This document shows positions 3,819-25,815 of a stretch of DNA of 62,406 nt, piece by piece. The notes under the pieces were generated by a model. The model did no database searches and was not told where the DNA came from. It saw only the letters and a program-made list of their open reading frames with translations. This DNA comes from Symbiobacteriaceae bacterium. Lineage in GTDB: Bacteria > Bacillota > Sulfobacillia > Symbiobacteriales > Symbiobacteriaceae. The stretch covers positions 1 to 62,406 of the forward strand of contig JARBUG010000019.1 of the NCBI GenBank assembly GCA_029239785.1, given 5' to 3'. Both the position numbers and the translations under genes were made by a program. Position 1 is the stretch's first letter, and each line of letters starts with the position of its first letter.

Positions 3819-5618
3819 TTGGCAAGACCCTACCGAGCCAGGCGCTGGCGGCCCATGCTGCCCGACCCTGCGGGCTGCTGGGCGCTCGCTCGCACACTCA
3901 ATATCTCGCCAGTTACGGCGCAAGTGCTATATAACCGCGGCCTCACCACGCCGGAGGCGGCCCACGCCTTTCTCACCGCCGGGCGGGAGCAGATTCTCGA
4001 TCCGTTCCGCCTCAAGGACATGGACCGGGCAGTGGCCGTCATTCGCCGGCGCATCGCCCAGGGCGGGCCGATTATGGTTTACGGCGATTACGACGTCGAC
4101 GGCGTTACCGGCACCACCATTCTGGTGCTCGCCCTGCGGGCGCTGGGCGCCCAAGTCGACTTTTACATTCCCAACCGCTTCAGCGAAGGGTACGGCCTGA
4201 ACGTGGGCGCCCTGGAAGAGATCCATGCCCGGGGCTACGACTTTGTCATTTCGGTTGATACCGGCGTCACCGCCGTGAAAGAGGCGCTGGCGGCCAAGGC
4301 GATGGGCATGACCCTCGTCGTCTCGGACCACCACGAACCGGGCCCCGAACTGCCCGATGTGCCCGCCCTGATCAACCCGAAGCGCCCCGACTGCACCTAC
4401 CCATTCAAAGGATTGTCGGGCGTAGGCGTCGCCTTCAAGCTGGCCCTGGCCCTGGAAGTGCCCGGCGCCTGGGATTTAATCGACATCGTCACCCTCGGCA
4501 CCATCGCCGACATGGTGCCGCTGGTGGGCGAGAACCGGGCCATCGTGCGGGAAGGGCTCGCCGCCCTGGGCAACACCCGGCGCCCCGGCCTGCGGGCGCT
4601 CATGGAAGTTGCCGGGGTCAAGCCGCCCGTCACAGCCACGCACATTGGGTATTCCCTCGGCCCGCGCCTGAACGCACTGGGCCGCATGGGCAGCGCCATG
4701 CTCGGCGTGGAGTTGCTCTGCACCGAAGACTCGGAGCGGGCCATGACCCTGGCCCGCCACCTGGACGAAGAGAACAAGAGCCGGCAGGAAGTCGAAGCCG
4801 GCATTCTGGAGGAAGCGCTCCGCCAGGCTGAAAGTCAGCCGCCCGACCAGAAGGAGTTCGTCATGGTCCTGGCGGGTGAGGGCTGGCACCACGGCGTGGT
4901 TGGCATCTGCGCCTCGCGGGTGCTTGAGTCCTACCATCGGCCGTCCATTCTTCTTTCCATCGACGGCGAAGAAGCCCGGGGCTCGGCCCGGTCGATTCCT
5001 GCCTTCCACATGCACCGGGCGCTGCTGCAGGTCTCCGACCTGTTCTCCAAGTTTGGCGGGCACGCTGCCGCGGCCGGTATGACGCTCAAAAGCAAGGACG
5101 ACATCGCCCAGCTTCGCCGGCGGCTCAACGAGATCGGGCGGGCCTGGCTCAAACCGGAAGACCTGGTGCCGGAACTCCGCATCGATACGACGGTTACACT
5201 GGACCAGGTCAACCACGACCTGCTCATGGAACTGCAGCGGCTTGAGCCGCACGGCATCGGCAATCCGCAGCCCGTCTTTGCCGTCAGCGACGTTGTCGTG
5301 GCCGACAGCCGCACCATTGGCAAGGAAGCGAACCACCTGAAGCTGCTGCTGCGCGGCAAGGGGCCCGGCGCCATCATGGACGCCGTGGGCTGGTCGCTGG
5401 CGCCCGCCAAACCGGCCATCACCTCTCGGGTGCAGGTGGCCTTTCACCCCGAATACGACACCTACCAGAGCCGGAACCAGCTCCGCCTCACCATGCGCGA
5501 CGTGCAGGTAATCGCCTCGCCGGACGGCTCGGGCATGCCAGTCAATCTGGCCCCGGTGCCGCAAGTAACGGTGGAGGCCTGCCGCAGCTGGGACCCGCTC
5601 AACGCCCGCCGCACTTGA
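3819..5618 (+). CDS. recJ: Single-stranded-DNA-specific 5'-3' exonuclease RecJ (core)
   Basis: DHH-family exonuclease that degrades 5' single-stranded DNA in recombination and mismatch or base-excision repair. DHH motif I (DYDVDG) is at residues 90-95 and the DHH signature at 170-172. A DHHA1 region with a GG(H) motif (FGGHAAAAG) and an OB-fold tail follow. At 599 residues it matches the core enzyme but is much shorter than the ~780-residue Bacillus form. The missing C-terminal domain is encoded separately by the next gene, in another frame and 1 nt away. The TTG start at 3819 has GGAG 9 nt upstream. The order recJ-apt-relA is typical of Bacillota. Confidence 0.93.
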   Translation: MARPYRARRWRPMLPDPAGCWALARTLNISPVTAQVLYNRGLTTPEAAHAFLTAGREQILDPFRLKDMDRAVAVIRRRIAQGGPIMVYGDYDVDGVTGTTILVLALRALGAQVDFYIPNRFSEGYGLNVGALEEIHARGYDFVISVDTGVTAVKEALAAKAMGMTLVVSDHHEPGPELPDVPALINPKRPDCTYPFKGLSGVGVAFKLALALEVPGAWDLIDIVTLGTIADMVPLVGENRAIVREGLAALGNTRRPGLRALMEVAGVKPPVTATHIGYSLGPRLNALGRMGSAMLGVELLCTEDSERAMTLARHLDEENKSRQEVEAGILEEALRQAESQPPDQKEFVMVLAGEGWHHGVVGICASRVLESYHRPSILLSIDGEEARGSARSIPAFHMHRALLQVSDLFSKFGGHAAAAGMTLKSKDDIAQLRRRLNEIGRAWLKPEDLVPELRIDTTVTLDQVNHDLLMELQRLEPHGIGNPQPVFAVSDVVVADSRTIGKEANHLKLLLRGKGPGAIMDAVGWSLAPAKPAITSRVQVAFHPEYDTYQSRNQLRLTMRDVQVIASPDGSGMPVNLAPVPQVTVEACRSWDPLNARRT

Positions 5619-5619
5619 A

Positions 5620-6297
5620 GTGGCGGCCGCCAACGACGAGTCCGAGCACGAGCGGCCTGAGCCATCACGGCAGCTCTACCTCGAAGGACTGCTCCGGGTC
5701 GGTGCCCAGACGCTGGTGTATACGGCGAGCCCATGGGCCGCGGCGGCCTTAACCGCCGAGCTGCGCGAGTCGCTGCCTGATCTGCGCAGTGAAATCGGCC
5801 TCTGGCTGCCCGGCCAGCCGGAACCGGCCACGACTGCAGTTGTAACGGCTTACGGCATGTCGCCCGAGGGAACCTTCACCGACACCGTTCTTTACCACCC
5901 GCCATATAGTGACGCACAGCTGCCTGGCGGCCGGGTCCATCTGCTCTGGGAGCAGAGCGACTGGCTGCTTTCCGAGGCCTCCCTCGGCTGGCCCTACCCG
6001 GACCGCGATGTGCTGGTCACGGCCTTCAAACAGCTCAAGTCCGGCGCAACCGGCGCTGATGCGCTCGCAAAGGCGCTTGCCGAGCCCGCCGGCCCCTGGA
6101 ATCAGCTCCGCTACGAGGCAGCCCTGGCGGTCTTCCGCGAGTTGGGCCTCATCGCCCCGTCGGGCGGGCTGTTGCCCACCAACGGCGCCAAGTTTCAGCT
6201 TGAATCCAGCCCCCGCTATCGGCGGGGTTTGGCGTGCCGAGCCACCCTCAGGGAGTTCCAAGCAAGAGATTGGCCTGACGGCACAGAGGCACTATAA
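5620..6297 (+). CDS. Stand-alone RecJ C-terminal domain protein (split recJ)
   Basis: 225 residues that resemble the extra C-terminal domain of Bacillota RecJ (ssDNA-exonuclease C-terminal family). Visible features are a YLEGLLR...TLVYTASP strand-helix start, a central HLLWEQSDW strand, a PDRDVLVTAFKQLK helix and a closing FRELGLI...KFQLESSPRY block. It starts with GTG 1 nt after the recJ stop, in a different frame. The join falls at the usual linker between the OB fold and this domain. Together the two genes total ~825 residues, close to a full-length Bacillus-type RecJ. It is therefore either a naturally split subunit or a recJ interrupted by a frameshift or base-call error. The stop codon overlaps the apt promoter. 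Confidence 0.7.
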   Translation: MAAANDESEHERPEPSRQLYLEGLLRVGAQTLVYTASPWAAAALTAELRESLPDLRSEIGLWLPGQPEPATTAVVTAYGMSPEGTFTDTVLYHPPYSDAQLPGGRVHLLWEQSDWLLSEASLGWPYPDRDVLVTAFKQLKSGATGADALAKALAEPAGPWNQLRYEAALAVFRELGLIAPSGGLLPTNGAKFQLESSPRYRRGLACRATLREFQARDWPDGTEAL

Positions 6298-6298
6298 T
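6270..6298 (+). promoter_or_regulatory. Sigma-A promoter for apt
   Basis: TTGGCC (6270-6275), 17-nt spacer and a perfect TATAAT (6293-6298). It overlaps the end of the RecJ C-domain gene. Transcription would begin near 6305, just before the apt AGGAGG at 6307-6312. Confidence 0.7.
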
Positions 6299-6320
6299 GA
6301 GGGATGAGGAGGCGGCACAA

Positions 6321-6833
6321 TTGGATTTCAAGTCGTACGTTCGCACCATCGAGAATTTCCCCAAGCCCGGTATTTCGTTTAAGGACATCACCACGCTTCT
6401 CAACAACAAGGAAGCGTTCCACGCCGCGATCGAGACGATCGCACGCCATTTCGAAGGCAAGCAGATTGATATTGTCACGGGCCCCGAGGCCCGCGGCTAC
6501 ATTTTTGCTTCGGCCCTGGCCTACCGGCTGGGCGCCGGCTTTGTGCCCGTGCGCAAGCCCGGGAAGCTCCCCTACAAGACCAAGCGCATCTCTTACGCCC
6601 TCGAGTACGGTGAGGACGCCCTCGAAGTGCACGAGGACGCGTTCCTGGCCGGCCAACGGGTGCTGGTAGTCGACGACCTCCTCGCCACTGGCGGCACCAT
6701 TCGGGCCACCATCGACCTGGTCGAATCCTTCGACGCCAAGGTCGAAGGCGTCGGCTTCATGATCGAGCTGGCCTTCCTGAATGGCCGCAAGCGGCTCGAC
6801 GGCTACGATCTCATGTCCCTGATTCAATACTAA
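6321..6833 (+). CDS. apt: Adenine phosphoribosyltransferase
   Basis: Converts adenine and PRPP to AMP plus pyrophosphate (purine salvage). The PRPP-binding loop VLVVDDLLATGGT is at residues 114-126, and the PEARG-type loop (GPEARGYIFA) lies upstream. The start is TTG at 6321, giving LDFKSYV... and a 170-residue protein, the usual Apt length. A clear AGGAGG sits 8 nt upstream (6307-6312). A longer reading from ATG 6297 would begin inside the -10 box of the promoter and is rejected. The gene lies between recJ and relA, as in most Bacillota. Confidence 0.95.
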   Translation: MDFKSYVRTIENFPKPGISFKDITTLLNNKEAFHAAIETIARHFEGKQIDIVTGPEARGYIFASALAYRLGAGFVPVRKPGKLPYKTKRISYALEYGEDALEVHEDAFLAGQRVLVVDDLLATGGTIRATIDLVESFDAKVEGVGFMIELAFLNGRKRLDGYDLMSLIQY

Positions 6834-6847
6834 AGCGCGTGAGGGGC

Positions 6848-6882
6848 CGGGGAGCGCCAGTCGCTCCCCGCTCCCGGTTTTT
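6848..6882 (+). terminator. Possible terminator or attenuator between apt and relA
   Basis: A 9-bp stem CGGGGAGCG/CGCTCCCCG (6848-6856 with 6862-6870) followed a few bases later by a run of five T (6878-6882). The gap between stem and T run makes it an imperfect terminator. Confidence 0.4.
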
Positions 6883-6937
6883 GCCCGCACAGCTTACTCC
6901 TGCCCCGCGCCCAGCCCGTATGAAAGGTGGTGACGCC

Positions 6938-9124
6938 ATGGCTGCCCTCGATTTGCTGCGTTCCAAGATTAGTTCCTATAACCCGAATGCGGACTGGCAG
7001 TTGATCGAATCGGCGTACGCCTTTGCCGAGGCTGCGCACGATGGCCAGTTGCGCAAGTCAGGCGAGCCCTATATCACCCATCCACTGGCGGTCGCCGAAA
7101 TTGTGGCCGAAATGCAGTTGGATGTGGCCAGCATCGCCGCGGCGCTCCTGCACGACGTGGTGGAAGACTGCGAAGTCTCCCTGGATGCGATCACCACCAA
7201 GTTCGGCAAGGAAGTCGCCACCATTGTGGAGGGCGTTACCAAGCTCGAAAAGCTGAACTTTTCTTCCCGCGACGAAGCTCAGGTCGAGAATCTCCGCAAA
7301 ATGTTCCTGGCCATGGCCAAGGACCTGCGCGTCATTCTGATCAAACTGGCCGACCGGCTGCATAACATGCGCACGCTCAAGTACCGCAACCAGGAAGCCC
7401 AGCGGCGCATCGGCCAGGAGACCATGGATATTTACGCCCCGCTGGCCCACCGGCTGGGTGTCAGCGAAATCAAGTGGGAACTGGAAGATCTGGCCTTCCG
7501 CTATACTGAGCCCGACCGCTACCAGGAAATCGCGCAGTTGGTGGCCCGCAAGCGCCAGGAGCGCGAGGAACTGACCAACGACCTGATGGAGAGGCTCCGC
7601 CAACGTCTGGATGAGGCTGGTATTCCGGCCGACATCTCAGGCCGACCCAAGCACTTTTATAGCATCTACAAAAAGATGTACCGGCAGGGCAAGGACATCA
7701 CCCAAATCTACGATTTGATCGCCATCCGCTGCATCGTCGATGAAGTGAAGGACTGTTACGGCGCCCTGGGCGTTATTCACTCCCAGTGGAAGCCGCTGCC
7801 CCTGCGCTTTAAGGATTATATCGCCACGCCGAAGCCGAACATGTACCAGTCGCTCCACACGACTGTCATCGGGCCCCACGGCGAGCCATTTGAAATTCAA
7901 ATTCGAACCTGGGGCATGCACAAGACCTCGGAGTTCGGCATTGCTGCCCACTGGGCTTATAAGGAAGGCCGGGCCGACAAGGAGTTCGACAAGAAACTCC
8001 AGTGGCTCCGCTCGCTCCTGGATTGGCACCAGGAGATGCGGGACGCCCGTGAGTTTGTCGAGTCGGTTAAGGTCGACATTTTCGCCGACCAGGTCTTCGT
8101 TTTCTCACCCAAGGGCCACGTCTATAATCTGCCGGCCGATGCGACGCCGCTGGACTTCGCCTTTGGCGTCCACTCAGACATCGGCTATCGCTGTGTTGGC
8201 GCCAAGGTGAACGGCAAAATTTCCCCGTTGGACCGAAAGCTCCAGAACGGCGACGTCATCGAAATTCTGACTTCCAAGCAGTCGCCGGGGCCGTCCATCG
8301 ACTGGCTGAAAATCGTCAAGACAGCGTCCGCCAAGAACAAAATCCGGCAGTTCTTCAAGAAAGAACGCCGGGAAGAGAACCTGGCCCGTGGGCGCGATAT
8401 TCTGCGCGGCGAAATCCAGAAGACCGGCATTGAAGCCCACGAACTGCTGCGCGATGAGTGGGTCGAAAAGGTCTGCGAAAAGTCGGGCGTCAAGGATGAA
8501 GAAGAACTTTGCGTAGCCATCGGCATCGCATCACTGGCGGCGTCGACCGTGGTCTCCCGGCTGCGGGAGTTCTACGAGCGGGAGAAGAAGGCTTCCGAGC
8601 CACCGCCGCCGGTAGATATTCAGACTCGGGACTGGTCGGGTTACGGCAAGGCGACCCATGGCATTCGGGTCAAGGGGACCGATGGCCTGGCCATCAAGTT
8701 CTCCCGGTGCTGCAGCCCGGTGCCGGGCGACCCGGTGATCGGCTTCGTCACCCGGGGCCGCGGCATTACCGTCCATCGGATGGACTGCCCGAATATCGAT
8801 GATCTGGCGAAGGATCCTGACCGGCTGATCGAGTGCGCCTGGGAAGAGAATTACAACGCTGCCCATCCGGTCGAGGTGCAGATCACCGCTCTCGACCGCT
8901 CGGGCCTGCTGGCCGACATCGTCTCGATTGTGGCGGAAGCCCGCATCAATATGATCTCCACAACCAGCCGGGTGCATAAGAACAAACTGGCCACCATTGA
9001 TATGATTTTGGAGATCAAGGATTCGCAGCAGCTGCAGTATATCTTCCAGAAGGTCTATAAAGTCCGCGATGTTATGACGGTGGAGCGTGTGACGCGTGAA
9101 CGTCGCAAGGCACAGGCTAAGTGA
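6938..9124 (+). CDS. relA: (p)ppGpp synthetase/hydrolase, RelA/SpoT (Rel) family
   Basis: Bifunctional alarmone enzyme of the stringent response, using ATP and GTP/GDP and sensing uncharged tRNA on ribosomes. The order is HD hydrolase (LLHDVVED, H72-D73), synthetase domain (about residues 230-340), TGS (about 385-450), a zinc-finger-like/helical region with CCSPVPGD, and a C-terminal ACT domain. Both catalytic halves look intact, as in the single Rel of Bacillota. ATG at 6938 is chosen because AAGGTGG ends 7 nt upstream; this gives 728 residues, close to the B. subtilis protein. An upstream in-frame start at 6839 lacks a ribosome site. A bidirectional terminator lies at 9326. Confidence 0.95.
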   Translation: MAALDLLRSKISSYNPNADWQLIESAYAFAEAAHDGQLRKSGEPYITHPLAVAEIVAEMQLDVASIAAALLHDVVEDCEVSLDAITTKFGKEVATIVEGVTKLEKLNFSSRDEAQVENLRKMFLAMAKDLRVILIKLADRLHNMRTLKYRNQEAQRRIGQETMDIYAPLAHRLGVSEIKWELEDLAFRYTEPDRYQEIAQLVARKRQEREELTNDLMERLRQRLDEAGIPADISGRPKHFYSIYKKMYRQGKDITQIYDLIAIRCIVDEVKDCYGALGVIHSQWKPLPLRFKDYIATPKPNMYQSLHTTVIGPHGEPFEIQIRTWGMHKTSEFGIAAHWAYKEGRADKEFDKKLQWLRSLLDWHQEMRDAREFVESVKVDIFADQVFVFSPKGHVYNLPADATPLDFAFGVHSDIGYRCVGAKVNGKISPLDRKLQNGDVIEILTSKQSPGPSIDWLKIVKTASAKNKIRQFFKKERREENLARGRDILRGEIQKTGIEAHELLRDEWVEKVCEKSGVKDEEELCVAIGIASLAASTVVSRLREFYEREKKASEPPPPVDIQTRDWSGYGKATHGIRVKGTDGLAIKFSRCCSPVPGDPVIGFVTRGRGITVHRMDCPNIDDLAKDPDRLIECAWEENYNAAHPVEVQITALDRSGLLADIVSIVAEARINMISTTSRVHKNKLATIDMILEIKDSQQLQYIFQKVYKVRDVMTVERVTRERRKAQAK

Positions 9125-20219: not shown

Positions 20220-21299
20220 ATGACGCTACTTATGAAGATCATCGACCTTCGCAGTGATACGGTAACAGTCCCGACGCCGGAGATGCGGCGGGCCATGTTT
20301 GAGGCCGAAGTGGGCGACGATGTGTACGGGGAGGACCCGTCGGTCAACCAGTTGGAAACGGAAGCCGCAGCGCTGCTGGGTAAGGAGGCTGCGCTGTTTG
20401 TCCCGACCGGCACCCAGGGCAACCAGATCGCCATCATGAGCCACACCAGCCGCGGCCAGGAAGTGATCATGGAGGCCGAGAGCCATGTCTTCTACTACGA
20501 GCAGGGCGGCATCGCCGTGCTGTCCGGCTGCCAGACCCGCCCGGTGCCGGGCGTGAACGGCGCCATGGACCCTGACCGGGTGGAAGCTGCGATTCGGGGC
20601 GAGAACATCCATTATCCCGTGACGGGTCTGGTCTGCGTGGAGAACACCCACAACCGCTCGGGCGGCTGCGTAGTGCCCATGGAAAACCTGATGGCGGTTG
20701 CCGAGGTGGCCCATCGGCACGGGGTACCCGTTCACATGGACGGCGCCCGTGTGTTCAACGCGGCGGTAGCGCAGGGGCGCCCGGTGGCTGAAGTGGTGGC
20801 TCCGGTGGATTCGGTCATGTTCTGCCTGAGCAAGGGTCTGGCCGCGCCGGTGGGTTCCATGCTGGTTGGCTCCCAGGCGTTTATTGACCGCTCCCGCCGG
20901 GCACGGAAGCTGCTGGGCGGCGGCATGCGCCAGGCTGGTATTCTGGCGGCGGCGGGTCTGGTTTCGATTCGTTCGATGGTCGACCGGCTGGCCGAGGACC
21001 ATGAGAATGCCCAGACCCTGGCCCGGGGCCTGAATGAAATTGCCGGCCTCAGGGTGGACCTGGCGACTGTGCAGACGAACATGATCATGTTCGATATTGA
21101 TGATGCCCGGTGGGATGCGGAGAGCCTTGCCGGGGCGATGACCCGGGCCGGCGTTGTGTGCAATGCGAACGGGCCGCGTCGGGTTCGGCTGGTGACGCAT
21201 AAGGATGTGTCAGCGGCCGATGTGGCGGAGGCGTTGGATCGGACGGCTCAGGTCGTGAAGGCCGGGCCGGATGGGAAGGCTGCCGGGTATATGTACTAG
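20220..21299 (+). CDS. ltaE: Low-specificity L-threonine aldolase
   Basis: PLP-dependent enzyme cleaving threonine/allo-threonine to glycine and acetaldehyde. Fold-type I features are the N-terminal [26 protein letters not shown], the [11 protein letters not shown] aspartate site and the Schiff-base lysine in [12 protein letters not shown] (K205 counted from 20220). Length is 359 from ATG 20220 or 355 from ATG 20232. AAGGGGG lies only 2 nt before the first ATG and 14 before the second, so the start is uncertain; homology with KIIDLRSDT favours 20232. The gene is monocistronic with a strong terminator shared with the convergent peptide gene. Confidence 0.9.
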
Positions 21300-21308
21300 G
21301 GAAAAGCA

Positions 21309-21338
21309 AAACCCCACCTCGGAGGAGGTGGGGTTTTT
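21309..21338. terminator. Bidirectional terminator, ltaE / peptide gene 1
   Basis: 9-bp stem CCCCACCTC/GAGGTGGGG (21312-21320 with 21325-21333) extended by AAA/TTT, then TTTTT on the + strand; T-rich on the - strand too. Confidence 0.85.
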
Positions 21339-21355
21339 CGCTGGGGGCGAACAAG

Positions 21356-21490
21356 CTACTTAAAGCTCTTCATCATGCTCATGCTTTTGACACCGACGCC
21401 ACCGATATTATCGTGTTCAGCCGAGGCCACACTAGCGACCGCCAGCAGAGAAATGACCAACACCAACGCGACAAGTGCGAACTTCTTCAT
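21356..21490 (-). CDS. Secreted signalling-peptide precursor 1 (44 aa), candidate
   Basis: Very short gene encoding 44 residues. MKK is followed by a 17-residue hydrophobic core and an ASVASA signal-peptidase site, so cleavage after residue 24 leaves a 20-residue tail, EHDNIGGVGVKSMSMMKSFK. The ATG at 21490 has GAGGAGG 9 nt upstream, which argues that it is translated. It lies 81 nt after the TPR-protein gene on the same strand. The core IGGVGVKS recurs exactly in a second tiny secreted peptide after the paralogous TPR gene (23692-23811). This is the layout of receptor/propeptide pairs of the Rap-Phr kind. The signalling role is inferred; the export signal and shared core are seen. Confidence 0.8.
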   Translation of the reverse strand: MKKFALVALVLVISLLAVASVASAEHDNIGGVGVKSMSMMKSFK

Positions 21491-21527
21491 ACCATCAAAC
21501 CTCCTCAGGCTGTATGTTTCCCTCTGA

Positions 21528-21582
21528 TTTTCGCTACCAGCGAAAACTCTGTCCGCAAATCAGGGGCTTCGTTAAGCCCCTG
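21528..21582 (-). other. Two perfect hairpins between TPR gene 1 and peptide gene 1
   Basis: CAGGGGCTT-CGTT-AAGCCCCTG (21561-21582) overlaps the TPR stop. TTTTCGCT-ACC-AGCGAAAA (21528-21546) lies 38 nt before the peptide start. The first may partly terminate or process the message; the second is also a palindrome a DNA-binding protein could use. Confidence 0.5.
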
Positions 21583-22462
21583 CCTGCTGCCGGAGCAAGA
21601 CGCTACGCCGCAGTGCGCTGGCGTCGTTCATGAGTCGAGAATTCTTCGCCTCGGTAGCGAGACCCAAGGCCGTGTTCGACAGGGCCGTTGCGCTTTCGAG
21701 GTGCCCTTGGTCCAGTGCCACTTTTGCTGCAACCCAGGCAGCCTGGCTCTGTTCTTCAGGGGTAATCGGCTCACCACGCTCCACCCGGCGGAAGATAGCT
21801 TGGCAGAGTTCGGCTGCTTGAGCGAAATTCGCCTGTATGGCGTTTAGGAACGCTTCGCCCAGGGTTTGGTGGACTCGGTCAGTTTCACTTGAAATCAGGG
21901 TGTGGGCTTCATCAAGGCAGGCTCGGGCATCTTCGGGTTGGTCCATGTGGCAGTAGAGCCACGCTAGGTTATGTAAGCTCTTGCACAAGAGTGATGGAAG
22001 ACCGTCACGCCGGAAACAGGCGATTGCCTGTTGATAGGACCGAACCGAGCCCGGAAGGTCCCGACGATCACGGAGCGTGAGCGCCAGGTAGAAATGCGCT
22101 TTCCCTTCGCCCATGGAGAGCTCAGGGTATTTTATTGATAATTCCTGAAGAAACAGCTGGAACTGCTCCATGGCCACGTGCGTGTCACCAATCCAACGGG
22201 TCACCATGCCGAGGTGGAACCGAATCTGGCCCAGTAGCTTAATTGGGTCTTGCCGGCTGTAAGCCGCGAGCGACTTCTCGGCCAGGTCCTTTGCCGTGAG
22301 GAAGTCACGTCGACCGAAAGCGGCATGGGAGCCCATCAAAAGCAACCGGGCCCCAGGTGGTCCTTCTTGCCGGAGTCGCTCGAACTCCTGCCAAGCTTTG
22401 TCCCACTGAAGGGTTTCAATGAACCCCAGCAGGTCGCTAAGCTGGTTGTTCTTGTTCTCCAT
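21572..22462 (-). CDS. TPR-repeat protein 1, candidate peptide receptor
   Basis: 296-residue all-helical protein with several tetratricopeptide-like repeats, e.g. RFHLGMVTRWIGDTHVAMEQF, AHFYLALTLRDRRDLPGSVRSY and SLHNLAWLYCHMDQPEDARACL. No signal peptide, membrane segment or DNA-binding domain is visible, so it should be cytosolic. It is clearly paralogous to the divergent TPR gene (shared LLMGSHAA block near residue 38 and the same repeat spacing). ATG at 22462 has GGGGG 7 nt upstream; a longer in-frame start lacks one. Because a secreted mini-peptide gene follows, it is a candidate RRNPP-type receptor, which bind re-imported peptides through TPRs. The effector partner is unknown. Confidence 0.82.
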   Translation of the reverse strand: MENKNNQLSDLLGFIETLQWDKAWQEFERLRQEGPPGARLLLMGSHAAFGRRDFLTAKDLAEKSLAAYSRQDPIKLLGQIRFHLGMVTRWIGDTHVAMEQFQLFLQELSIKYPELSMGEGKAHFYLALTLRDRRDLPGSVRSYQQAIACFRRDGLPSLLCKSLHNLAWLYCHMDQPEDARACLDEAHTLISSETDRVHQTLGEAFLNAIQANFAQAAELCQAIFRRVERGEPITPEEQSQAAWVAAKVALDQGHLESATALSNTALGLATEAKNSRLMNDASALRRSVLLRQQAGA

Positions 22463-22534
22463 TCCAATCCCCCTGTTGACCGTTTGTCCTGTTGGCACCC
22501 CAGGCGGACTGGAAGGTGTCAACTTCTGTTTACC

Positions 22535-22563
22535 AGATTACGGGGAAATTGGGAAAAGGTCAA
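22535..22563 (-). promoter_or_regulatory. Promoter of TPR gene 1
   Basis: On the - strand: TTGACC (22563-22558), 17-nt spacer, TAATCT (22540-22535). Confidence 0.5.
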
Positions 22564-22705
22564 CCCGTTTGTCATGTTCTCTGTGCGTGAACAGTTCGAC
22601 AAGATCCTCGTCAGTTTGGAACTTGCCAGCAAATTATTCGAAATGCGAACCCGGTGGTCAACGCCGGTCGAGGACACAAATGTTGTCGGCAAATCAATAA
22701 TAAGG

Positions 22706-22734
22706 TTGAAATGGGATTTGCTACCAGGTATAAT
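22706..22734 (+). promoter_or_regulatory. Promoter of TPR gene 2 operon
   Basis: TTGAAA (22706-22711), 17-nt spacer, perfect TATAAT (22729-22734). The ~310-nt divergent region also holds the promoter of TPR gene 1; the AT-richer stretch between them (22570-22700) has no gene. Confidence 0.75.
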
Positions 22735-22776
22735 CTAGGCAAGGACTAGCTTCCACATTCACCGGGGGGGGTTGAA

Positions 22777-23679
22777 GTGGACCTGCTGCAGTGCCTGGCC
22801 GCTTTCATTGAGAACGAATCGTGGGCAGAGGCCTATGATCTCTTCACCCAATGGACCAGCGGGCCATCCTCGGAACGTCACCTTCTAACGGGGGCAGATG
22901 AGGCACGATTCCTGCTTATGGGGTCACACGCGGCATGCGGCCTTAGGAAAATGGTAGAGGCAAAGCGCTTGGCGGAGCAGGCACAAAAACGCTGGTGCCC
23001 CAAGTCACCTGACGTTCTCTCCGGAAAGATTCTGTTTCACTATGCACGAGTACTTCAGTTGATTGGAGACACCTCCCGAGCGAGAAGTATGTTCCAACAA
23101 TTCCTTATGGAGGTGAACAACTGGTTTCCAGCCCTCTCTCTCGGTATTCCCAAGGCTTACTTCTATCTTGGTTTGATCTCGCGTGCCTTCAGGGATTTCG
23201 AAGGTGCGGTTGAGGCGAACCAGAAGGCGATCCACCTGTTTAGGGAACGCCGTGAGTGGACGTTCTGTTGCTTCGCACTGCAAAACCTTGCCTGGGTTCT
23301 CTGTAAGTTGGAGCGACCCCAGGAGGCGGCAGAAGCACTGGGGGAAGTAACGCAGATCTTCGCTGGTCAACTGCCCCCCGAATTGGCTGTTGAGCAAGCC
23401 TTAGGCAATGCCTACGTCTCATACCTGGAAGGGAATTACTCACCTGCGAAGCTCCTGCTACACGAGGTGCTGCGCTTACCCTCAACGAAAAACGAGATTA
23501 AGTCGATGGCCTGGTGCCTCTCCGGGTATGTTGCGGTAGCTGAGGGTGAGTTGCTCCTGGCCGAAGACATGGCGAACTGCGCGATCGCTTCTGCAGAGAA
23601 GGTTTTTGATTCACGACTCATCAATGATGGCACTGACCTTCTTCGCAAAATACGCCGGCAGAAGCGTTCTCCGGCATGA
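22777..23679 (+). CDS. TPR-repeat protein 2, candidate peptide receptor
   Basis: 300 residues, helical, with TPR-like units FHYARVLQLIGDTSRARSMF, AYFYLGLISRAFRDFEGAVE, ALQNLAWVLCKLERPQEAAE and a C-terminal CLSGYVAVAEGELLLAEDMA. It is a paralogue of the divergent TPR protein (matching ARFLLMGSHAACG block). No HTH, signal peptide or membrane span is seen. The GTG start at 22777 follows an 8-G run. A 39-residue secreted-peptide gene begins 12 nt after its stop with a ribosome site overlapping the stop, so the two are co-expressed. It heads a likely four-gene operon with that peptide, a membrane GAF-like protein and an XRE regulator. The receptor role is inferred from this layout. Confidence 0.83.
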   Translation: MDLLQCLAAFIENESWAEAYDLFTQWTSGPSSERHLLTGADEARFLLMGSHAACGLRKMVEAKRLAEQAQKRWCPKSPDVLSGKILFHYARVLQLIGDTSRARSMFQQFLMEVNNWFPALSLGIPKAYFYLGLISRAFRDFEGAVEANQKAIHLFRERREWTFCCFALQNLAWVLCKLERPQEAAEALGEVTQIFAGQLPPELAVEQALGNAYVSYLEGNYSPAKLLLHEVLRLPSTKNEIKSMAWCLSGYVAVAEGELLLAEDMANCAIASAEKVFDSRLINDGTDLLRKIRRQKRSPA

Positions 23680-23691
23680 GGAGGTACATCA

Positions 23692-23811
23692 ATGGCGCGC
23701 TTGATCGGGTTATTACTGGTCCTTGCAGCTGTGGTTATGCCCTCGGTTGCAGGGGCAGAACGAGGCGATATCGGAGGGGTGGGCGTGAAGTCCCACCAGG
23801 TCGCTGAGTGA
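23692..23811 (+). CDS. Secreted signalling-peptide precursor 2 (39 aa), candidate
   Basis: 39-residue product: a short basic start (MAR), a hydrophobic core of about 13 residues, a PSVAGA cleavage site, then the tail ERGDIGGVGVKSHQVAE. The eight residues IGGVGVKS are identical to those in the peptide encoded beyond the paralogous TPR gene, while the rest has diverged. This is the pattern expected if the core is the active signal and the flanks give specificity or processing. ATG at 23692 has AGGAGG 7 nt upstream, overlapping the TPR stop. The 37 nt to the next gene contain no terminator. Confidence 0.82.
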   Translation: MARLIGLLLVLAAVVMPSVAGAERGDIGGVGVKSHQVAE

Positions 23812-23848
23812 GAAAAACTCGCCGCCGACGAAACGGAGAGAGGTAGTT

Positions 23849-24595
23849 GTGGGAAAACCACAGGGTTTCCTTCGCCTTCCTTGGACGATTTGGGTGGCCG
23901 GCGCAGCGATCGCTGCATCTGGCGTAATGTCCATTGTCGGCTCACTCACCCGCGGCAACCAGACTTCCGATGTTGTGTTTTGGGCAGGGTTCATTTCGGC
24001 GGGAGTTTCCGGGCTTGGCAACGTGATTGCTCACTTCGGACACCATTGGCGGTCTGAGAAATGGCAGCCCGATGAGGCTATTCAGACACTCCTCGAAGCC
24101 TACTTGTGGGACGATGGTGACGCCAAAGTGGTGAAGCAGGGGCTGCGACTCAACGTTCTGATGCCAGATCGTAACGGGGTTCTACACAGTCGTTTTTCAG
24201 TCAATATGGGCGGTTCACCTGATCGCACCCTGACCTGGGCGGAGAATCAGGGGCATATCGGATACAGCTTTTCAACCGGCAAAGCACTGGCCGAAGATCT
24301 GTCGAGATTCCGACATCTCACCTTCGAAGAGGTTTCAGCCAAGATGGCAGACTACCCAATTCCGTGGGGATTGAGCCGTACCCATTGGCAGCACCTGCAT
24401 GGAGTAGGCTCGGCACTTTGCGTCCCCATTCCGCATCCCACACGGTCTGGGCGCCTGATAGGCGTCCTGGTGCTCGACTCTCCGAAACCGCTTGCCGCAA
24501 CTGATTTTCTCGCCGCTGAGACCCAAGACCGCTGGTCCCGGCGGGTAGCACGTCTGGGATGCCTCTTCAGTGAACTCGGGCTTGTCCCGAAATAG
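23849..24595 (+). CDS. Membrane-anchored GAF-like sensor protein
   Basis: 248 residues. Two N-terminal transmembrane helices (about 10-32 and 42-64) are followed by a cytosolic region (75-240) with the look of a GAF domain: LRLNVLMPDRNGVLHSRFSV, GHIGYSFSTGKALAEDL, and LCVPIPHPTRSGRLIGVLVLDS. No kinase, cyclase or HTH module is attached. GAF domains bind small molecules or mediate dimer signalling. GTG at 23849 follows GAGAGAGG. Its place between the peptide gene and an XRE regulator suggests it belongs to the same signalling operon, for example as a membrane-side sensor or regulator partner. Ligand unknown. Confidence 0.7.
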   Translation: MGKPQGFLRLPWTIWVAGAAIAASGVMSIVGSLTRGNQTSDVVFWAGFISAGVSGLGNVIAHFGHHWRSEKWQPDEAIQTLLEAYLWDDGDAKVVKQGLRLNVLMPDRNGVLHSRFSVNMGGSPDRTLTWAENQGHIGYSFSTGKALAEDLSRFRHLTFEEVSAKMADYPIPWGLSRTHWQHLHGVGSALCVPIPHPTRSGRLIGVLVLDSPKPLAATDFLAAETQDRWSRRVARLGCLFSELGLVPK

Positions 24596-24609
24596 GTGGG
24601 TGATGTACG

Positions 24610-25713
24610 GTGAAACCGGGAATGGAAGAGTTGCGACCGGGACTTCATATTCAGGCGGACACGGGTTTCGACCTCATCCAGCCTGGATACAGGCCCAACA
24701 CGAGCAGGGCACATGCAGGAGATGCAGCGCACAGGTCAATCTCTGTAGCGGTTGACCGTGAAGCGGTGGCATCTCTTCTCGTAGGTGCCGCTGTTGGTGC
24801 GACTATCCTGGGGTCAATCGGCGCCGCCGTGCAGGCTGCTATGGCAGGGGTCGGCGGCGCCGCGTTGGGCGGCGCGGTGGGTGCGACCTTTGGGGTGATA
24901 CTCGGAACGGAGATGGGCCGTCGAATCAGCAACTTCCAGCGGTGGATTGACCGTAGCGCAGATGGACAAACAGATGTCCCGAACCATGGTTGCGACTGGT
25001 TGCAGCAGCGCCAGGACGAGTCTGAGCATTTGTCGGTATTGGCGCAGCGCCTGGCACGGGTACGCAACGAGTGCGGAATCACCGTGGAAGAACTCAGCGT
25101 TCGGTGCGGCATCTCCTCGGAGTTCCTTGCTGAACTTGAAACCAACTGGGTCAGTCCGACGTTGTCTCAGGTCAGGCGCATAGCGAAGGCCCTGGGGGTT
25201 ACCGAGTTGTTTCTTCTCGGCGGAGTTCAGACGGCCGCATCAGACGATTTCGGATCCGAAGAGATGGACGGCGTGGCGTGGATGGTAGGCCGTCGATTTG
25301 CCTCGTACCTGGAAAACCTTAACCCCACAGAACGGCAGGAACTCCGCGAAGCCTCCGTGGAGCAACGGTTCACTTTCGCGGTTGGCTTCTTGTGCCACAC
25401 CTTTCCTTCTTCGTTCACCCCCACAGTGCTGGCTCTTTTGCTTAATCTCAGTCCTGACACCTTCGAGCGTATCCTCCATGGCGGTGAGCCAATTGCCAGG
25501 TACACCCTGTGCAGACTGACGCAGGTAACCGGCATAAGCATTCGTTTTTTCTCTGTAGGTGACATCCGTGAGGATTGCGAAGCTGGCGCTGTGTCCACCG
25601 AACAGGCACTGGAGTATCTCCAGCCCATTTCAGCAGCAGTGCGTGGACAACTCCCTGCCGCCCACCTCACGGCGTTGATTGCCAAGCATTTGGAGATTCA
25701 CCGCCCTTCCTGA
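24610..25713 (+). CDS. XRE-family HTH regulator with glycine-zipper segment
   Basis: 367 residues. A Gly/Ala-rich hydrophobic stretch at 55-100 (VGAAVGATILGSIGAAVQ...) resembles a glycine zipper or membrane hairpin. An XRE/Cro-type helix-turn-helix follows at about 144-203 (RLARVRNECGITVEELSVRCG...). The C-terminal 160 residues contain a second XRE-like helical block near 275-315 (LLLNLSPDTFERIL). A membrane-associated DNA-binding regulator is therefore likely. It lies 14 nt after the GAF-like gene and is the only DNA-binding protein in the TPR/peptide cluster, so it is the best candidate output regulator, since neither TPR protein has an HTH. The GTG start at 24610 has only a modest ribosome site. 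Confidence 0.72.
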   Translation: MKPGMEELRPGLHIQADTGFDLIQPGYRPNTSRAHAGDAAHRSISVAVDREAVASLLVGAAVGATILGSIGAAVQAAMAGVGGAALGGAVGATFGVILGTEMGRRISNFQRWIDRSADGQTDVPNHGCDWLQQRQDESEHLSVLAQRLARVRNECGITVEELSVRCGISSEFLAELETNWVSPTLSQVRRIAKALGVTELFLLGGVQTAASDDFGSEEMDGVAWMVGRRFASYLENLNPTERQELREASVEQRFTFAVGFLCHTFPSSFTPTVLALLLNLSPDTFERILHGGEPIARYTLCRLTQVTGISIRFFSVGDIREDCEAGAVSTEQALEYLQPISAAVRGQLPAAHLTALIAKHLEIHRPS

Positions 25714-25815
25714 ACAGCGCCAGCTTGCTACGTGAAACAGCCTATCGGCGTGATATCGTTGATAGGCTCGGGCGGTTCGCAGAGAGAGGGCAGACTATCC
25801 CCGGAGGGAAGCATC

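Follow-up and report, generated by a model that had tools for sequence, protein, structure and literature searches.

Do two gene pairs lying back to back in a member of the Symbiobacteriaceae, each made up of a tetratricopeptide repeat (TPR) gene and a tiny gene for an apparently secreted peptide, serve peptide signalling? The question is raised by positions 21356–23811 of contig JARBUG010000019.1 (assembly GCA_029239785.1), whose 62,406 nucleotides are called the window below; the source genome, G000, comprises 5.52 Mb in 302 contigs. An earlier note on this DNA had proposed two divergent paralogous TPR genes, behind each of them a tiny gene that has a strong ribosome site and encodes a signal peptide, and an exact IGGVGVKS core common to both peptide tails. 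These elements are borne out here, the signal peptides as signal-peptide-like starts. The TPR genes lie on opposite strands and their products are 37% identical, with TPR models as the sole models passing the Pfam cut-offs. TPR1 (21572–22462, minus strand) encodes 296 amino acids from its likely start, ATG 22462, which has AGGGGGA upstream, in a reading frame that is open to TTG 22522 (21572–22522, minus strand); TPR2 (22777–23679, plus strand) has a GTG start and encodes 300 amino acids. On the same strand as its own TPR gene, propeptide gene 1 (21356–21490, minus strand; 44 amino acids) starts 81 nt after the TPR1 stop and propeptide gene 2 (23692–23811, plus strand; 39 amino acids) 12 nt after the TPR2 stop, both with GAGGAGG ahead of ATG. 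By a home-made rule of hydrophobicity, charge and a small-x-small site, both products have a signal-peptide-like start, followed by the tails EHDNIGGVGVKSMSMMKSFK and ERGDIGGVGVKSHQVAE, respectively. The core (21383–21406, minus strand, and 23770–23793, plus strand) is identical in the two tails, and its flanks differ (SMSMMKSFK versus HQVAE). We consider it likely that each pair is a peptide-signalling module working like the RRNPP systems.

Although the cores are identical, seven of their eight codons differ, including that for serine (AGC/TCC), and the core has therefore been held by selection. A common run of eight residues did not arise in any of 200,000 shuffles of the pair of tails. The earlier note had made its reading depend on coding constraint in the small frames, and such constraint was found, since pN/pS (the ratio of non-synonymous to synonymous change) of orthologous propeptides was below 1 in all six comparisons (0.63, 0.25, 0.44, 0.18, 0.33 and 0.27), the last three of which draw on three common genomes and are not independent.

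Recurrence of the pairing within the order

A profile built from eight TPR proteins (A1) matched, at E 1e-5, 40 places spread over seven of the order's genomes (G000–G006) and none in the eighth, G007. The first sample, composed of 31 stretches and the window, gave 36 TPR matches at this threshold among frames of at least 150 amino acids, one of them a duplicate. To qualify as a peptide frame, a reading frame had to combine a ribosome site with a hydrophobic stretch behind Lys or Arg and with a small-x-small site. Such a frame occurred at −40 to +250 nt of 21 of 35 TPR genes, against 1 of 245 control genes taken from 18 other stretches in five of the order's genomes. With the range set at −100 to +250 nt and two TPR genes dropped for short contig ends, the count was 23/33 against 1/245 (Fisher P 8.6e-25, which is too small because the rule postdates the first candidates and orthologs were counted singly). 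The contrast between TPR and control genes is large, and the other three flanks of the same TPR genes carried no peptide frames (0/34, 0/33 and 0/34). Within the window, the two TPR genes are the only ones of 40 genes with a qualifying downstream frame. Five matches fall outside the 33 genes counted, namely a 292-amino-acid TPR protein with a peptide (G004:C72), two without and two cut by contig ends, so that 24 of the 36 TPR relatives that could be judged are followed by a peptide frame. Related genomes thus keep peptide frames beside their TPR genes, as the reading of the note requires. In a few cases, the peptide and TPR frames have more than 60 nt in common. A looser scan added two frames, one for a second peptide in tandem at G000:C2 and the other behind a TPR gene at the end of contig G004:C25.

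It might be argued that the peptide frames are open by chance, given how short they are and given that the criteria were fixed once candidates were known. We find this scarcely credible and reject it, in view of the single hit among 245 controls, the empty other flanks, the pN/pS values below 1 and the synonymous changes within the core.

At E 1e-14, profile A1 matched 7 of 154 genomes of the class, six of them within the order, and the match in the seventh (G025) is a protein combining helix-turn-helix (HTH) and TPR parts. At E 1e-5, 32 of 61 relatives gave a match, and 25 of these belong outside the order, with open frames of 379–1278 amino acids except for one of 205. Another profile, A3, searched at E 1e-15 over 299 genomes of the phylum with at most eight candidates scored per genome, matched five genomes including the source, and the other four places are in frames of 450–1169 amino acids. 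A phylum-wide family was rejected on the near confinement, among genomes of the class, of A1 matches at E 1e-14 to the order; of the matches outside the order, that in G025 was examined further. A mobile-element origin was not supported either, TPR1 having no match in phages, TPR2 none in plasmids and the alignment of TPR1 with its G002 relative none in viral contigs.

Domain content and predicted structure of the receptors

The structural model of TPR1 (pLDDT, the predicted local distance difference test, 96.4; pTM, the predicted template modelling score, 0.91) contains 15 helices from residue 2 on, which by our own count would correspond to about seven TPRs and a last helix. The receptor is thus predicted to consist of TPRs only and to lack both the HTH of most RRNPP receptors and the three-helix bundle that Rap has. 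Pfam scans of the two window TPRs and ten full-length relative frames returned no HTH or Rap domain, in agreement with the earlier note, which had seen no DNA-binding or phosphatase signature. The N-terminal model of Rap, RapH_N, is absent from the Pfam matches of these same proteins. Across 21 members, which matched 17 NCBIfam and at least 25 Pfam families, no HTH domain or Rap family is named among the matches listed; those in NCBIfam include weak ones to regulators, AfsR and NsdA among them. In PHROGs, two nameless families were matched, the better one by 10 of the 21 members and marked as of unknown function.

In Foldseek searches with the TPR1 model, designed TPRs and LGN ranked first, followed at lower ranks by RapI (30), NprR (38) and Rap with CSF (48), with TMq of 0.64–0.66 and E values of 3.5e-5 to 7.5e-5; phage Rap stood at ranks 35 and 49 (TMq 0.56). 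At alignment positions 125 and 165, asparagine is found in 15 of the 21 members each, TPR1 itself having tyrosine at 125, and these residues may form a ladder holding a peptide backbone. In Rap, the pheromone is anchored by an asparagine, a likeness that here concerns residue type and not superposed structures. Two sister receptors (L057 and L052) have glutamate at position 165, and their peptides are basic near WP (GPKWP and TRPIWP). Co-variation of groove and core, which the earlier note had suggested as a test, is possible at this position, as a single event in one sister pair.

Relation to known RRNPP systems

According to PMC10075063, RRNPP receptors span 250–500 amino acids and have a TPR-model match below E 1e-5 that covers more than 65% of the model. 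Both window TPRs lie within these limits, with TPR_12 matches at E 6.9e-8 (model positions 8–73 of 77) for TPR1 and 8.6e-10 (5–75 of 77) for TPR2; several relatives would fall short. For the adjoining propeptide gene, RRNPP systems are delimited by a length of 10–100 amino acids, a position at −60 to 400 bp and a strong ribosome site, and the genes of the window, with 44 and 39 amino acids at +81 and +12 and GGAGG, agree with this; the Sec/SPI signal peptide that RRNPP searches establish with SignalP was judged here by our home-made rule.

The N-terminal HTH typical of RRNPP(A) receptors was not found in the window TPRs. This domain has been lost in Rap and in subfamily 17 (PMC12700828). In Rap, seven TPRs are preceded by a three-helix bundle and a linker (PMC11343458), and the window receptors resemble it, and the Rap-Phr pairs in general, in being HTH-less TPR receptors with an adjoining propeptide gene, seven TPRs and a similar fold (the Foldseek ranks between 30 and 49), but differ in that the model shows no three-helix bundle or linker before the TPRs. 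Plain membership in Rap or NprR was accordingly rejected, there being no HTH, no Rap domain in Pfam and no three-helix bundle in the model. The cores of the window family are also, to our knowledge, unlike Phr pheromones. With the receptors NprR, PlcR, Rgg, ComR, PrgX, AimR, AloR and QssR, usually accompanied by an adjacent small propeptide gene (PMC10075063), they share the TPRs, a similar size and the adjoining gene, but those receptors generally have an N-terminal HTH, which the window TPRs and ten full frames lack. RRNPPA receptors outside the Bacilli have been reported in Clostridium acetobutylicum (PMC7376267), and besides Rap there is another HTH-less candidate group, subfamily 17 of Anoxybacter fermentans (PMC12700828), which the window receptors resemble in this trait, as compared by description. 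Of the likeness to Rap-Phr and other RRNPP pairs proposed in the earlier note, the receptor/propeptide arrangement stands, carried by recurrent pairing and coding constraint; these results do not place the receptors in any of the named families.

We found no literature joining RRNPP with Symbiobacterium, in a search that did not extend to the RRNPP_detector supplements (PMC10075063), where the pair may be listed, and the portions of the peptide and quorum-sensing literature on Symbiobacterium thermophilum covered here contained no such system. The suggestion that the system is undescribed holds to this extent. Receptor/propeptide signalling would thereby be extended to an order for which the literature found describes none, with a receptor that looks reduced to its sensor half and, in the window, a natural pair of diverged receptors beside one pheromone core. 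The family may serve as an outgroup for the question, raised in PMC12700828, of the form of the first RRNPP receptor. Peptide cross-talk is also of interest in Symbiobacterium because growth of Symbiobacterium toebii depends on a partner bacterium (PMC3208422).

Proposed mechanism and output partner

In the mechanism that we favour, each small gene would encode a propeptide exported by Sec and cut by signal peptidase, from whose tail a short peptide around IGGVGVKS would be trimmed. An oligopeptide permease would take this peptide back up, and the TPR protein encoded next to it would hold it in its concave groove. As this TPR protein is predicted to lack both a DNA-binding and a three-helix output domain, it must act through contact with another protein, for which the linked XRE-family regulator would be the best candidate. 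The family SBP_bac_5 has seventeen places in the source genome.

The cluster extends past propeptide gene 2 up to 25713. It includes a protein with a hydrophobic N-terminal part and a GAF match right at the Pfam cut-off (23849–24595, plus strand), a possible further operon member, and the XRE-family regulator (24610–25713, plus strand), the candidate partner of the TPR proteins. An HTH_3 gene lies within 2.5 kb of three of eight pair places in G000 (C57, C92 and C296), against a chance expectation of 0.17 from 19 places genome-wide (Poisson P 0.0007, in a test chosen after the neighbours were known). Homologs of the window-type XRE regulator, orthologous to each other, also adjoin pairs in G001 and G003, and a gene at G002:C233 encodes a protein 26% similar to it. 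These associations are suggestive only of a partnership between XRE regulator and TPR receptor. The model of the regulator has a mean pLDDT of 72; Foldseek ranked proteins of the SinR/DdrO/PrgX-HTH type first, none reaching E 0.001, and the window regulator differs from this type in its longer C-terminal part. A fold assignment was set aside on these grounds, that is, low model confidence and no match at E 0.001. Ahead of its HTH, the N-terminus of the regulator (24610–25032) is glycine-rich and hydrophobic, which is unusual in a soluble regulator.

Several observations weigh against the reading of the pairs as RRNPP-like modules with an XRE output. Twelve of the 36 judged TPR relatives have no such peptide, two of these being frames of 931 and 1096 amino acids, and the peptide criteria were fixed after the first candidates were known, with orthologs counted singly. 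TPR2 alone finds no sequence match in the PDB at E 1, and no RRNPP receptor is among the 60 listed of 115 PDB matches of the profile. Pfam returned nothing at E 0.001 for the G002:C233 protein taken as XRE, a homolog of the window XRE regulator is missing beside most pairs in the stretches compared, and orthologs of the G001 XRE at G000:C105, G002:C183, G005:C101 and G006:C86 have no family TPR gene within 1.5 kb.

The last two points lend weight to an alternative that we take seriously, even if we lean away from it, in which the pairs do serve signalling but the partner of the TPR protein is a response regulator or another protein, as in Rap, and the XRE gene is incidental. The specific partners of Rap receptors are proteins. 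In keeping with this alternative, Rap receptors work through such partners rather than DNA (PMC11343458); on the other hand, HTH_3 genes are found near three of eight pair places where 0.17 would be expected, and no Rap-type three-helix bundle is predicted for the window receptor. An RRNPP-like module with the XRE regulator as candidate partner remains our preferred reading for the window. Its full extension to the order, as a split family with a bare seven-TPR sensor, a separate XRE DNA-binding half, about nine pairs in one genome, and neighbouring pairs in which one pheromone addresses two receptors with different outputs, is a tentative proposal and on present evidence rather unlikely. At G004:C67 (L083), the XRE ortholog has a propeptide resembling the G001 one close by but no TPR gene; this stretch of 2503 bases ends soon after the propeptide, and the contig end may explain the missing gene.

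Origin of the twin pairs and probable cross-talk

Relatives are also present elsewhere in the source genome, and the closest receptor is in another genome. In a tree of 35 TPRs, TPR1, TPR2 (on a long branch) and the G002 TPR form one clade (99/97) without a resolved inner order. The G002 protein, a relative of TPR1 with 57–59% identity, adjoins a propeptide with a related but different core, AGGITPHS. At the G002 locus, the window's genes for a thioredoxin, a beta-eliminating lyase and a 2'-5' RNA ligase-like protein are conserved around one peptide-TPR pair, with one additional intervening gene and without TPR2, peptide 2, GAF or XRE genes (this genome is 77% complete). From the tree and this locus, the twin appears to be an old duplication, through gain in the source genome or loss in G002.

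That an identical core goes with receptors so unlike each other suggests one ligand to which the two window receptors are held. Of the two possibilities left by the earlier note, cross-talking or specificity-diverged pairs, the former is favoured, as the core is exact beside receptors 37% identical, while the closest receptor goes with AGGITPHS. A single pheromone probably serves both of the twin pairs, which would then work as one cross-talking unit with a common divergent promoter. Separate specificities, with the shared core as a feature of processing or export and the flanks as the deciding part, seem doubtful to us. The flanks do differ, and GVKS, a piece of the core, recurs in the RPGVKS tail of the pair at C136; nevertheless, the full core is found in none of the other 23 propeptides listed (which have IWP, SGGPSSF, NGTVGL and more), and hence it is no general processing signal.

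Propeptide tails and neighbouring genes

Tails are similar to one another within groups. WP is present in 7 of the 25 tails listed, including NGTIWP at C37, and further tails are TRPIWP, NGPIWP, GPKWP, SGPRWP, NGTVGL and GIECT, with SGGPSSF and TAGPTIW in genus g2. The C204 propeptide (L073, behind the TPR gene at 4795–5697) holds its core twice, as ENGTIWP and ENGSIWP, in the manner of the internally repeated pheromone propeptides known from other systems (PMC9765709). Some tails bear cysteines. CNGG..GPPP is found in those of G001 and G004:C72, and AYPGD-x-PC, flanked by cysteines, is common to the two tandem propeptides at G000:C2. In this stretch (L059; 29000–39500, minus strand), three TPR genes follow in a row and the tandem propeptides lie between those at 6205–7128 and 4285–5307, a second instance of neighbouring propeptides with a common core.

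Peptidase and transporter genes adjoin some pairs. A subtilase gene of 970 amino acids lies behind the C136 pair on the same strand (L075, 6370–9279, plus strand) and is a possible maturation protease. S9 peptidases share their stretches with the pairs at C37 and G002:C233 and also lie near that at G005:C10, and an ABC transporter lies near the G002:C406 pair. The S9 prolyl-oligopeptidase genes near three pairs are at L074 1160–3214, L057 2268–4367 and L072 6230–6499, the last piece being assigned by similarity and a neighbouring S9 place. These neighbours could mature or clear the peptides, or else favour a different function for the small proteins, as exported effectors (bacteriocin-like or envelope-acting) with the TPR protein as chaperone, immunity or regulatory partner, and with neither signalling nor uptake. 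Signal-peptide-like starts, short tails and the cysteines in some of them would suit effectors, as would the peptidase and transporter genes at C37, G002:C233, G005:C10, C136 and G002:C406. We nonetheless regard this function as improbable: of the nine S9 peptidase places in G000, just two are on C37 and the rest on other contigs, the same peptidases could mature or break down a pheromone, and a core repeated within one propeptide and common to neighbours fits a ligand better.

Candidate regulatory sequences of the locus

The region between the two TPR genes (22463–22776) would act as a divergent promoter. It contains promoter-like sites on both strands (22661–22633, minus, and 22706–22734, plus), which match 11 and 10 of 12 positions; a scan of 4.7 kb (21100–25800) found four such sites against 1.5 expected. 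An intrinsic-terminator-like hairpin of 13 pairs (21308–21337, minus strand) lies between propeptide gene 1 and the gene at 20220–21299, one of seven terminator-like sites found in 21100–25800 against 4.8 expected in shuffles. The motif TTGYCRGCAAAT is a lead. It occurs at four places in the whole genome, two of which are in the divergent promoter (22623–22634 and 22683–22694). A third lies inside a coding frame, about 450 bp upstream of the peptide-less TPR gene at C212.

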